DNA of 64,000 bases from assembly GCA_944379995.1 (NCBI GenBank), contig CALWGF010000006.1, positions 62,001 through 126,000 on the forward strand. The letters run 5' to 3'. The notes below the pieces were generated by a model. That model had not been told where the DNA came from, did not search any database, and saw only the letters and a list, made by a program, of their open reading frames with translations. The position numbers were made by a program, and so were the translations under genes. Origin of the DNA: an uncultured Clostridia bacterium. GTDB lineage: Bacteria > Bacillota > Clostridia > Lachnospirales > Anaerotignaceae. Shown piece by piece: positions 53,218 through 57,510 of the stretch. Every line of letters begins with the position of its first letter. Position 1 is the first letter of the stretch.

Positions 53218-55737
53218 ATGAGAATTCAACATAATATTGCAGCTTTAAATTCTTACAGACAATTAGGAACAAACAATAGTGCAATTTCAAAAAACCTTGA
53301 AAAACTTTCATCAGGTTATAAAATTAACCGTGCTGGTGATGACGCAGCAGGTCTTGCAATTTCAGAAAAAATGAGAGCACAGATTACAGGACTTGAAACA
53401 GCACAGAAAAATGCTAATGATGGTATATCACTTGTACAGACAGCAGAAGGTGCATTAACAGAAGTACATAGTATGCTTAACCGTATGGTAGAACTTGCAA
53501 CACAGTCATCAAACGGAACATACGATAACGAAGTAGACCGTGCAAACCTTCAGGCAGAAATCGAATCACTTACATCAGAAATCGACCGTATCGCAGACAG
53601 TACAAACTTCAACGGTATCAATCTTCTTGATGGTAGCTTAAGTGAAAACCCAGCTACATTTGAAATTGACCTTAAGAGTATTGATTTTGAAGGTACAGTA
53701 AAAGCGGGAGATACATTTAAACTTGAAATAGGCGGCGGTGCAGCAGCTAAAGCAGCCGGTGGAAGTACTGAAAGTATTGTACTTGAAAGTAGAGAAGCAT
53801 ATGGTGACGAAACAAGTGCAAAAGATATAGCAAAACTCTTTGATGGACAGTCAGTTACAATAAATGGAGAAAAATATACAGCTAAAGTTGGCGATAATGG
53901 TATATTAAAATTCACATCAAAAACAAGAGGCGAATTAACACAGTTACCAACAGAGGGTTCAATAGTTAAAATTAGTTCAACTAATAAAAATATAACATTT
54001 AAAAATGATAGTACTACTATTTTAAGTGTTGTAAATGGTGGTCCAGGTACTGTAGCGGGCACAGACAATGGTAGCGATGATACAGAACCAACACCAGCTA
54101 CAGCTACTACATTCAAACTTGATATTACAGGCTTAACAGGTAGTGGTGTAACTAGTGGTGATATATTTAGAATTGCTTTTACAAATGGAACTCTTGAAAG
54201 CAAAGCAGCGTCTGGTGGTGAGTCTGATGCACAAAGCATAGCAGCACTTTTCAATGGTACAACACTTACTATGAATGGTGTTGATTATGATGTTACAGTA
54301 GATGGTAGTAGCACAGAGTTAGTATTTACAGCTAAAACAGCAGGTGCACCAGAATCTAATCAAGCTCCAAGTGAGAGTGAAAGTGTTACAATTAGTATTA
54401 ATGACAAGGATTCAAGTAGTAGTACTGTAGGTGGTACTACTAGTGCAACAGTTACAGATTATGTAGCAGGTACAGACGGAACAGAAGAAGTAGTTGCAAC
54501 AGCATCAATACAGTCAAGAGCAGGAGCAGATGAAGGTATAAAAGCTAGCTTTAAAATCGACCTTGCTAGTGTTACAACAGTTAATTTACAAAGAGGTGAT
54601 AAAGCTGAACTTACTATTGGTTCTACTAAACTTGTAAGTAATGCAGCTGGTTCTACAGTAAATACTGCAAATAATTTAGCTAAGATGTTTGATGGTACAA
54701 CATTCAAAATGGGTGATGTTGAATATGATGTTACAGTAAGTGGAACTGAATTAACATTTACAGCTAAAGAAGCTGGAAAACAGACTTCAGCAACTTTACC
54801 AGATGATAATACAAATGTAACAATAGCAAAAGAGAATAGTGCTACTGGTAGTGTTACTAACCCAGGCGGTCTTAAAACAACAGGTAAAGTTGAAGGTACA
54901 GACCCAGTAGGTGATGGTGCTACAACAGGTAGTCCAGCTTCATTTGATATTGACCTTAGTGGTTTAACAACTATTAATGCAGCTCAGAATGATACATTTA
55001 AACTTACAATAGATGGTGTAGATGTTGAAAGTAATGGTGCTGGTGTTGGTGGTATATCTAATGATGCAGATAAATTAGCAGAACTTTTTAAAGGTAAAAC
55101 AATTACAATAGATGGTACAACATATGATATCACATCAAATGGATCAAAATTAACATTTACAGCACAAGAAAACGGTAAAGTAGCTGACTTAAGTGGTAAG
55201 ACTGTTTCAATTGGTAAAGGTAATACAGGTACTGGTTCAGCTACTGGTGGTACACTTGCTATATCAAATATGAACGTTGGTGAAGATGCTGCACCAGCAG
55301 GCGGTAATGGTGATAATACAGAAGGAACAACAACAAATAAATCACTTACACTCCAGATTGGTGACACAGCTGACTCATTTAACAAAATTACTGTAAGTAT
55401 AGGTTCAATGAGTGCAGAATCACTTAATATTGCTAATATTGATATTAGTACACCAAAGGGTGCAGAATTCGCTATTAAAAATATTAAAGATGCTATAAAT
55501 GTAGTATCATCACAGCGTGGTGAACTTGGTGCTATACAGAACAGACTTGAACACACAATCAACAACCTTGGTGTTACAACAGAAAACATCACATCAGCTG
55601 AAAGCCGTATAAGAGATACAGACATGGCAGAAGAAATGATGGCATATACAAAGAACAATATACTTGTACAGGCTTCTCAGGCTATGCTTGCTCAGGCAAA
55701 CACACTTCCACAGGGTGTTCTTCAGTTATTACAGTAA
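53218..55737 (+). CDS. hag: Flagellin with four internal repeat domains
   Basis: An 839-residue flagellin (usual 270-500). D0/D1 N-terminus at residues 1-140 (MRIQHNIAALNSYRQLGTNN, LSSGYKINRAGDDAAGLAIS) and C-terminus at ~710-839 (AESRIRDTDMAEEMMAYTKN, ending VLQLLQ) are canonical. The middle holds four related domains of ~130-155 residues starting at about 146, 297, 443 and 574. Codons in the conserved ends (many AAC, ATC, CGT) differ from the AT-rich middle. No Cys is seen. AAGGAGG precedes the ATG; sigma28 promoter and CsrA leader lie upstream. Confidence 0.96.
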   Translation: MRIQHNIAALNSYRQLGTNNSAISKNLEKLSSGYKINRAGDDAAGLAISEKMRAQITGLETAQKNANDGISLVQTAEGALTEVHSMLNRMVELATQSSNGTYDNEVDRANLQAEIESLTSEIDRIADSTNFNGINLLDGSLSENPATFEIDLKSIDFEGTVKAGDTFKLEIGGGAAAKAAGGSTESIVLESREAYGDETSAKDIAKLFDGQSVTINGEKYTAKVGDNGILKFTSKTRGELTQLPTEGSIVKISSTNKNITFKNDSTTILSVVNGGPGTVAGTDNGSDDTEPTPATATTFKLDITGLTGSGVTSGDIFRIAFTNGTLESKAASGGESDAQSIAALFNGTTLTMNGVDYDVTVDGSSTELVFTAKTAGAPESNQAPSESESVTISINDKDSSSSTVGGTTSATVTDYVAGTDGTEEVVATASIQSRAGADEGIKASFKIDLASVTTVNLQRGDKAELTIGSTKLVSNAAGSTVNTANNLAKMFDGTTFKMGDVEYDVTVSGTELTFTAKEAGKQTSATLPDDNTNVTIAKENSATGSVTNPGGLKTTGKVEGTDPVGDGATTGSPASFDIDLSGLTTINAAQNDTFKLTIDGVDVESNGAGVGGISNDADKLAELFKGKTITIDGTTYDITSNGSKLTFTAQENGKVADLSGKTVSIGKGNTGTGSATGGTLAISNMNVGEDAAPAGGNGDNTEGTTTNKSLTLQIGDTADSFNKITVSIGSMSAESLNIANIDISTPKGAEFAIKNIKDAINVVSSQRGELGAIQNRLEHTINNLGVTTENITSAESRIRDTDMAEEMMAYTKNNILVQASQAMLAQANTLPQGVLQLLQ
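53653..55320 (+). repeat. Four diverged tandem domains in the flagellin variable region
   Basis: Each unit opens with (A/T)-(T/S)-F-x-(I/L)-D and contains an (A/L)xLFxG(x)T(I/F)x(I/M)(N/D/G)G box and L(T/V)F(T)A closing strand. Units start near 53653, 54106, 54544 and 54937. DNA identity is low enough that this is an old duplication. Confidence 0.85.
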
Positions 55738-55782: not shown

Positions 55783-55816
55783 ATTTGAAAAGAGTATGTG
55801 TTTTTGATAAACTTTA

Positions 55817-55898
55817 TTTGGGAACGCTGTTCCCAAACCCTTGCAAGCCTTTAAAAAGGCTTGACCTAAACTTTTTTAAGTAAAACTATCGTTTTACT
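55817..55898. repeat. Cluster of three perfect palindromes before hemW
   Basis: In 82 bp: TTTGGGAAC-3-GTTCCCAAA (55817-55837), AAGCCTTT-2-AAAGGCTT (55845-55862), AGTAAAAC-4-GTTTTACT (55879-55898). None is followed by a long T-run and no gene overlaps. Confidence 0.85.
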
Positions 55899-55975: not shown

Positions 55976-57112
55976 TTGAAACATTTAAGTTTATATATAC
56001 ATATACCTTTTTGTATAAAAAAGTGTCTTTATTGTGATTTCCCTTCATATGGTGGTTGTGAAAGTATATTTGATGACTATGTAAATGCACTTATAAATGA
56101 AATTAGAGAAACAAAAGAGAGTTTTTCAGATTATAATATAAAATCCATATTTTTAGGCGGTGGAACGCCTTCTATACTTTCTCCAAAACTTACAGGGAAA
56201 ATTATGGATACTGTTTTTAATTGTTTTAATATTGATAGTAATTGTGAAATTACAACAGAGGCAAACCCTAAAACTGTTGATGAGTTTAAACTTAGAGAAT
56301 ATAAAGCTATGGATATAAACCGTATAAGTTTTGGTGTGCAGGCTTGGCAGAATAATATTTTAAAATCACTTGGCAGAGTTCATACAATAGATGATTTTAT
56401 TAAAAATATTGCTCAAGCAAGAGATATTGGATTTAAAAATATAAATGCTGATATTATGTTTGCACTTCCAAATCAGACTTTATATGATTGGGAGGAAACT
56501 TTGGAAAAAATAATAAAACTTAATCCTACCCATATTTCCGCTTATAGCCTTATTATAGAAGATGGTACTGTTTTTGGCAAAATGTATGACGAAGGTAATT
56601 TAAAGCCTTGTGACGAAGTATTAGACCGAAAAATGTACTATATGGCTAAAGAGATGTTAAGTGATAAGGGATATAATCAATATGAAATATCAAACTTTGC
56701 TAAAGAAGGCTTTGAATGTTATCATAATAAGGTTTATTGGAGATGTGATGAGTATATTGGTTATGGTATAGGTTCTCATTCATATTTTAATGGAGAAAGA
56801 TTTAATAATACATATGATATTGAAAAATATATAAGCTCTAAAGGTAAATATTCTGTTATAAAGGAAAATATCGAAAAATTAAAAACAGAAGATATGTATG
56901 CTGAATTTATGTTTATGGGGCTTAGAATGACTAAGGGTATTGAAAAACAAAGATTTTTTGAAAGATTTAATAAATCTGTTTTTGATGTGTATGGTAATGA
57001 AATAAAACATCTTAAAGAATTAAATCTTATAAATGAAACTGATACAAATATAATGCTTACTGAAAAGGGCGTTGATGTTTCTAATACTGTTTTTGAAAAA
57101 TTTATAATATGA
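55976..57112 (+). CDS. hemW: Radical SAM heme chaperone HemW
   Basis: A 378-residue radical SAM protein (HemN-like). Cluster motif CIKKCLYCDF has F after the third Cys region, the HemW form rather than HemN. GGGTPS and the N-terminal YIHIPFC are typical. It probably inserts heme into proteins rather than oxidising coproporphyrinogen. TTG 55976 has AAGGAG at 8 bases; an upstream GTG overlaps that site. It stands alone between two palindrome clusters. Confidence 0.92.
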   Translation: MKHLSLYIHIPFCIKKCLYCDFPSYGGCESIFDDYVNALINEIRETKESFSDYNIKSIFLGGGTPSILSPKLTGKIMDTVFNCFNIDSNCEITTEANPKTVDEFKLREYKAMDINRISFGVQAWQNNILKSLGRVHTIDDFIKNIAQARDIGFKNINADIMFALPNQTLYDWEETLEKIIKLNPTHISAYSLIIEDGTVFGKMYDEGNLKPCDEVLDRKMYYMAKEMLSDKGYNQYEISNFAKEGFECYHNKVYWRCDEYIGYGIGSHSYFNGERFNNTYDIEKYISSKGKYSVIKENIEKLKTEDMYAEFMFMGLRMTKGIEKQRFFERFNKSVFDVYGNEIKHLKELNLINETDTNIMLTEKGVDVSNTVFEKFII

Positions 57113-57337
57113 GGGTGTCGAAAACAACACCCTCTCGTCAAAATCAGGATTTTGACGAAAATTACTGTTGGTATAAACAGACCTTTCAGCACTTTGCTTT
57201 GCAAAGTCAGCTACGCTGCCCCACATGTCTTTGTGGGTGCGTGTTCCAGCGTCATAAATTCCTTGAAACTCGCTGTTTTCCTCAACGGAAGTCAATTCCG
57301 TTTGCGGATTAAAATAGGGAAACTCTTTGTTTCCCTA
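57111..57337. repeat. Dense palindrome cluster after hemW
   Basis: At least six perfect hairpins in 227 bp: GAGGGTGT/ACACCCTC (57111-57134), CGTCAAAATC/GATTTTGACG (57136-57157), ACTTTGC/GCAAAGT (57191-57207), CCCACA/TGTGGG (57220-57237), AACGGAA/TTCCGTT (57284-57302), TAGGGAAAC/GTTTCCCTA (57315-57337). A smaller CAGC/GCTG pair is at 57208-57218. The segment is richer in G+C than its surroundings. The first hairpin includes the hemW stop codon. Open frames here on both strands have no ribosome binding site and are taken as noise. Confidence 0.85.
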
Positions 57338-57438
57338 TACCCTTCAGCGGTATGTAAAATTAAAAAAATAAATTTATTATGAATATTTTATAGCATTTTT
57401 GCGTATATAATAATATAAAAAGAATAAAAAATTAAAAA

Positions 57439-57472
57439 ATCACTTGACATATAAGCCGTCAAGTGATATTTT
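57439..57472 (+). promoter_or_regulatory. hrcA promoter inside an inverted repeat
   Basis: TTGACA (57444-57449), 17 bp and TATTTT (57467-57472) form a vegetative promoter. The perfect inverted repeat ATCACTTGAC / GTCAAGTGAT (57439-57448 and 57458-57467) covers the -35 and reaches the -10. Confidence 0.65.
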
Positions 57473-57483
57473 AAGAGTATGAG

Positions 57484-57510
57484 TTAGCACTCAAATAAAG
57501 TGAGTGCTAA
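57484..57510 (+). promoter_or_regulatory. CIRCE operator
   Basis: Perfect TTAGCACTC-N9-GAGTGCTAA, the HrcA binding site, directly after the hrcA promoter. Confidence 0.98.

Follow-up and report, generated by a model that had tools for sequence, protein, structure and literature searches.

Insertion sequences of the IS1182 family (NF033551), including IS1272/TnSha1, are known to hit terminator hairpins, and in the case of TnSha1/IS1272 the insertion deletes part of the hairpin and makes no duplication (PMC4923244). Prokaryotic MITEs (miniature inverted-repeat transposable elements) have been reviewed as elements with terminal inverted repeats related to an IS, stem-loop transcripts, intergenic placement and insertion into one another (PMC10969869). 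Short dispersed repeats of this sort with structured transcripts are represented by the MITE-like BOX, RUP and SPRITE repeats of Streptococcus pneumoniae, where BOX is modular with optional inner units (PMC3049150), and by the bcr1-bcr18 repeats of the Bacillus cereus group, where bcr1-3 are MITE-like and bcr10 and bcr18 have conserved structure and are transcribed (PMC3446304).

Here we analysed a stretch of 64,000 nucleotides (the window) from an uncultured Clostridia bacterium, in which a sequence-only reading had pointed out six perfect hairpins packed into 227 bp after hemW. Our data indicate that these hairpins are one copy of an apparently undescribed short mobile element, which is non-autonomous and MITE-like, is present in up to 88 copies per genome across several related families of gut-type bacteria, lies at gene-end hairpins with the whole hairpin duplicated, and carries a conserved, RNA-like predicted fold. 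The mobile-element reading is well supported, whereas the notion that the fold acts as an RNA is likely but not proved.

Hairpins and parts of the hemW copy

The six hairpins were recomputed and confirmed: 57111-57134 (8 bp), 57135-57158 (11 bp), 57191-57207 (7 bp), 57220-57237 (6 bp), 57284-57302 (7 bp) and 57315-57337 (9 bp, or 10 bp if taken as 57314-57338). In 1000 dinucleotide shuffles of the stretch the mean was 0.40 and the maximum 3, and none of the shuffles reached six. A few other 227-bp stretches of this AT-rich window also reach 5-6 hairpins by the same count: those at 701 and 2751 are AT-rich, and the one at 55701 belongs partly to a second repeat family. The G+C content is 44% against 25% and 31% in the flanks and 29% in the window. 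The predicted RNA fold of 57105-57390 has an energy of -92.2 kcal/mol with z = -8.0 (z = -7.5 for the minus strand). There is no convincing gene on either strand, as no reading frame stays open across the copies and the copy lengths differ by 1-4 nt. The sequence-only reading was therefore right about the hairpins, the G+C content and the absence of a gene, but two corrections are needed: the stems range from 6 to 11 bp and not from 6 to 10 bp, and the unit is longer than the 227 bp that were pointed out, as it runs from 57111 to about 57370-57387. The parts of this copy are as follows.

57110..57112, plus strand: hemW stop codon TGA; the element starts inside it and supplies its last two bases (TAA in same-genus empty sites)
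57111..57380, minus strand: whole element (IS1182-type MITE with structured core), the RNA-like strand being the minus strand; the right end is uncertain, 57369 to 57387
57111..57134, no strand assigned: P1, terminal hairpin GAGGGTGT/ACACCCTC that contains the left terminal inverted repeat (GAGGGTGTCGAAAA); 3' end in RNA sense
57135..57158, no strand assigned: P2, TCGTCAAAATC/GATTTTGACGA, compensated in relatives (TCGTCGAAATC/GATTTCGACGA, TTTGTC../..GACAAA, long-loop variant TCGTCAAAGGC/GCCTTTGACGA)
57175..57180, minus strand: P3 outer strand AAACAG, which pairs with 57273-57278 CTGTTT (the helix is split here by the inserted module)
57183..57239, plus strand: nested 57-nt module with two hairpins (57191-57207, 57220-57237)
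57235..57347, minus strand: match to covariance model R1 (100.7 bits, E 4.6e-24)
57240..57278, minus strand: P3 inner part and P4 region (CGTGTTCCAGCGTCATAAATTCCTTGAAACTCGCTGTTT), with the conserved wobble position; P4 is degenerate in this copy
57284..57302, minus strand: P5, AACGGAA/TTCCGTT, strongly covarying
57303..57310, minus strand: near-invariant block AATCCGCA (plus strand TGCGGATT)
57314..57338, minus strand: P6, ATAGGGAAAC/GTTTCCCTAT, strongly covarying

Further downstream, at 57432-57510, a hairpin (TCACTTGAC..GTCAAGTGA) is followed by a CIRCE-like inverted repeat TTAGCACTC..GAGTGCTAA in front of hrcA-grpE-dnaK.

A dispersed repeat between duplicated terminators

The stretch matches about ten places in its own genome and, by DNA comparison, 26 of 60 relatives, all in the same family. 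A covariance model built from 26 copies (R1) finds the element in 47 of 58 family genomes and in 14 of 17 genera, with copy numbers such as 62, 57, 56 and 26 (genomes G018, G033, G021 and G030) and 8 in this genome, where the DNA search also found a copy cut by a contig end; none was found in the two same-genus relatives. In a sample of 295 genomes of the order it also occurs in three further families (f12, f17 and f23), with 88 copies in one genome (G227). Viral contigs gave no hit for an exact core pattern. It appears to be an unannotated repeat family that occupies many intergenic regions in Anaerotignum-type and related bacteria.

We investigated the insertion site by comparing the flanks. 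Two same-genus genomes have the hemW-hrcA junction without the element. Read by eye, many copies lie between two copies of one terminator hairpin, for example GAGGGTGTATACCCTC or AAACTGATATACAAAGTATATCAGTTT. A direct repeat of score 14 or more abuts both ends in 31 of 76 copies against 0 of 2255 shuffled flank pairs, and in 8 of 25 copies from other genera and families against 0 of 955; the repeats read as whole hairpins. The window copy itself, however, shows no significant target duplication but only a possible AT-rich remnant, and while its left end is clear, its right end is decayed and has no clear terminal repeat.

The termini of the element (CAGACTGTCRAAAAA) match those of IS1182-family insertion sequences in two relatives. 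The first of these, G071, belongs to the same family and has eleven IS of about 1484 bp with ends CAGACTGTCAAAAAA...TTTGACAGTCTG. In ten of them the IS is flanked by direct repeats of 20-35 nt that comprise a whole hairpin, the length following the hairpin, and one of these pairs has two differences; the eleventh (L253) reads as 17 nt because its end was misplaced. Their transposase and that of the second relative, G046 of family f12, score 375 and 417 bits to the NCBIfam IS1182 model NF033551 (cut-off 270). In G046 (locus L299) such an IS and a copy of the element sit side by side at the same terminator. In contrast, the IS1182 of another genome, G006, has different ends (GGCTGTTGCAAAA), and no IS1182 transposase was found in the genome of the window, the assembly of which is 88.8% complete. 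The element's ends match the IS ends of G071 and G046, so it is best read as a MITE of that IS type, of about 230-300 bp, that is, or was, moved in trans by an IS1182-family transposase. The duplication of complete terminators is seen in the sequence of many copies of the element and of the IS, whereas the act of transposition is inferred. Such an insertion would be harmless in a neat way: the terminator is copied so that both sides stay terminated, with a duplication whose length is set by the hairpin rather than by a fixed stagger.

A second element family of about 200-290 bp, with the end CAGACTGTCGAAAAA and a different interior, was noticed in genome G013 (loci L218, L228, L232 and L235), where the whole terminator is likewise duplicated on both sides. 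A decayed copy of a second dispersed repeat (core TTTGGGAACGCTGTTCCCAAACCCTTGCAAGCCTTTAAAAAGGCTTGACC), with relatives elsewhere in this genome and similarity to the second MITE family of G013, lies in the window at 55815-55885, after the flagellin-like gene of 839 aa with a long repetitive middle region (53218-55737). A relation of the second MITE family to R1 was seen only at 14 bits and is not claimed.

The predicted fold of the core and its possible role

The interior of the element shows very strong covariation. On 27 non-redundant copies, 94.7% of cells pair, 21 of 30 pairs show a double change, and there are 120 double-change cells against 34.5 in shuffles and at most 31 with slid partners. 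On 30 copies from other genera and families the numbers are 31 of 35 pairs and 193 against 47.4, although that alignment was fitted to R1. Departures from Watson-Crick pairing, when read on the minus strand, are G.U rather than A.C: 21 against 5 in alignment A3 (p 0.0025) and 43 against 15 in alignment A4 (p 0.0003), the latter having been fitted to R1 and thus leaning to its structure. In addition, one U.G pair is kept in 25 of 26 copies. The wobble asymmetry indicates that the folded strand is the minus strand, antisense to hemW, although G.T also beats A.C in single-stranded DNA and this test does not separate RNA from ssDNA. The near-invariant blocks AATCCGCA, GAGGAAAA, GTTTCAAGG and TTTATAC suggest a binding or tertiary role. 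No Rfam family matches the window, and only sub-threshold hits at chance level were obtained in the element and its copies. No internal sigma-70 promoter is enriched (25% against 24% of shuffles), so expression as an RNA is not shown, and the orientation to genes is nearly even (++ 26, -- 22).

The minus strand of the core is predicted to fold into a conserved three-helix domain (P6, P5, P3/P4) plus P2 and the terminal P1 hairpin. This core is kept by compensatory changes across at least four bacterial families, so selection acts on a folded single strand, which we infer to be most simply an RNA. The likeliest role is one for the element itself, either as a structured transcript that protects or limits it or as a recognition structure used in mobilisation. 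A bolder reading, which we put forward only tentatively, is that of a new, widespread class of structured RNA, with dozens of copies per genome, carried by terminator-duplicating IS1182-type MITEs, in which the RNA has a specific molecular function, for example binding the transposase, limiting transposition, or acting on host transcription or translation.

This copy is also a composite. Hairpins three and four form the 57-nt module, a second small repeat that has inserted into the P3 helix. Another optional module of about 65 nt (CACACCGC..GTGTTGACC) is inserted in the P6 loop of some copies (loci L030, L064 and L065). Of the possibilities offered by the sequence-only reading, namely an undescribed repeat element, a structured RNA or a composite of decayed elements, all three apply in part: the locus is a dispersed mobile repeat, its interior has RNA-grade covariation, and this copy is a composite because of the nested module.

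Alternative explanations and relation to described elements

One could argue that the fold acts as DNA, in that a single-stranded or cruciform form of the element is recognised during excision or integration, as REP hairpins are by RAYT transposases. The targets are hairpins, the terminal P1 is a hairpin, and the strand bias fits any single strand. However, the autonomous IS with the same ends gives no R1 match, so the core is not needed for that transposase to act, and the detailed covarying domain with conserved loops and a fixed wobble looks like RNA. A DNA-level fold is the main alternative, yet it is unlikely. Even less likely is a host regulatory RNA or riboswitch-like cis element that happens to be repeated and is not primarily mobile. 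The covariation with near-invariant unpaired blocks across families would fit this notion, and in genome G101 copies lie directly upstream of what reads as the start of 23S rRNA, that is, inside rRNA operons (loci L275, L282 and L287). On the other hand, the copy number ranges from 0 to 88 between close relatives, and there are empty sites, target duplications, IS-like ends and no consistent gene neighbourhood or orientation. It is very unlikely that the two hairpins of the 57-nt module are integral parts of the element: although copies in G021 and G030 also carry the module in P3, it is absent from the other copies of this genome, occurs twice in tandem at locus L059, is placed in P5 at L310, lies outside any R1 match at L309, L311, L312 and L315 (free-standing at L311, L312 and L315), and at L312 (genome G004) forms a tandem array of several copies of this module type without the element. 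Finally, a cluster of ordinary intrinsic terminators or decayed unrelated palindromes can be all but dismissed, even though the hairpins lie downstream of a gene and IS1182-type elements target terminators, since the same ordered hairpins recur at unrelated loci and genera and none of the six is followed by a T-run on the plus strand.

Among the open-licence papers that we searched, none describing this element or IS1182 MITEs was found, and the review of prokaryotic MITEs (PMC10969869) does not mention IS1182. The element shares with the MITEs reviewed there the IS-related terminal inverted repeats, the intergenic placement and the insertion of elements into one another, while the direct repeats here are 20-35 nt hairpins of variable length. 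The bcr repeats (PMC3446304) are known from the B. cereus group, unlike this element, which spans at least four bacterial families. The BOX repeats (PMC3049150) resemble it as short dispersed elements with optional inner units, but they belong to a different host order, and BOX and RUP do not duplicate whole terminators as far as their description says. With the IS1182 family the element shares the targeting of terminator hairpins and, in G071 and G046, the termini. Nevertheless, it has no transposase, and in contrast to the partial deletion of the hairpin by TnSha1 (PMC4923244), here the whole hairpin is duplicated.
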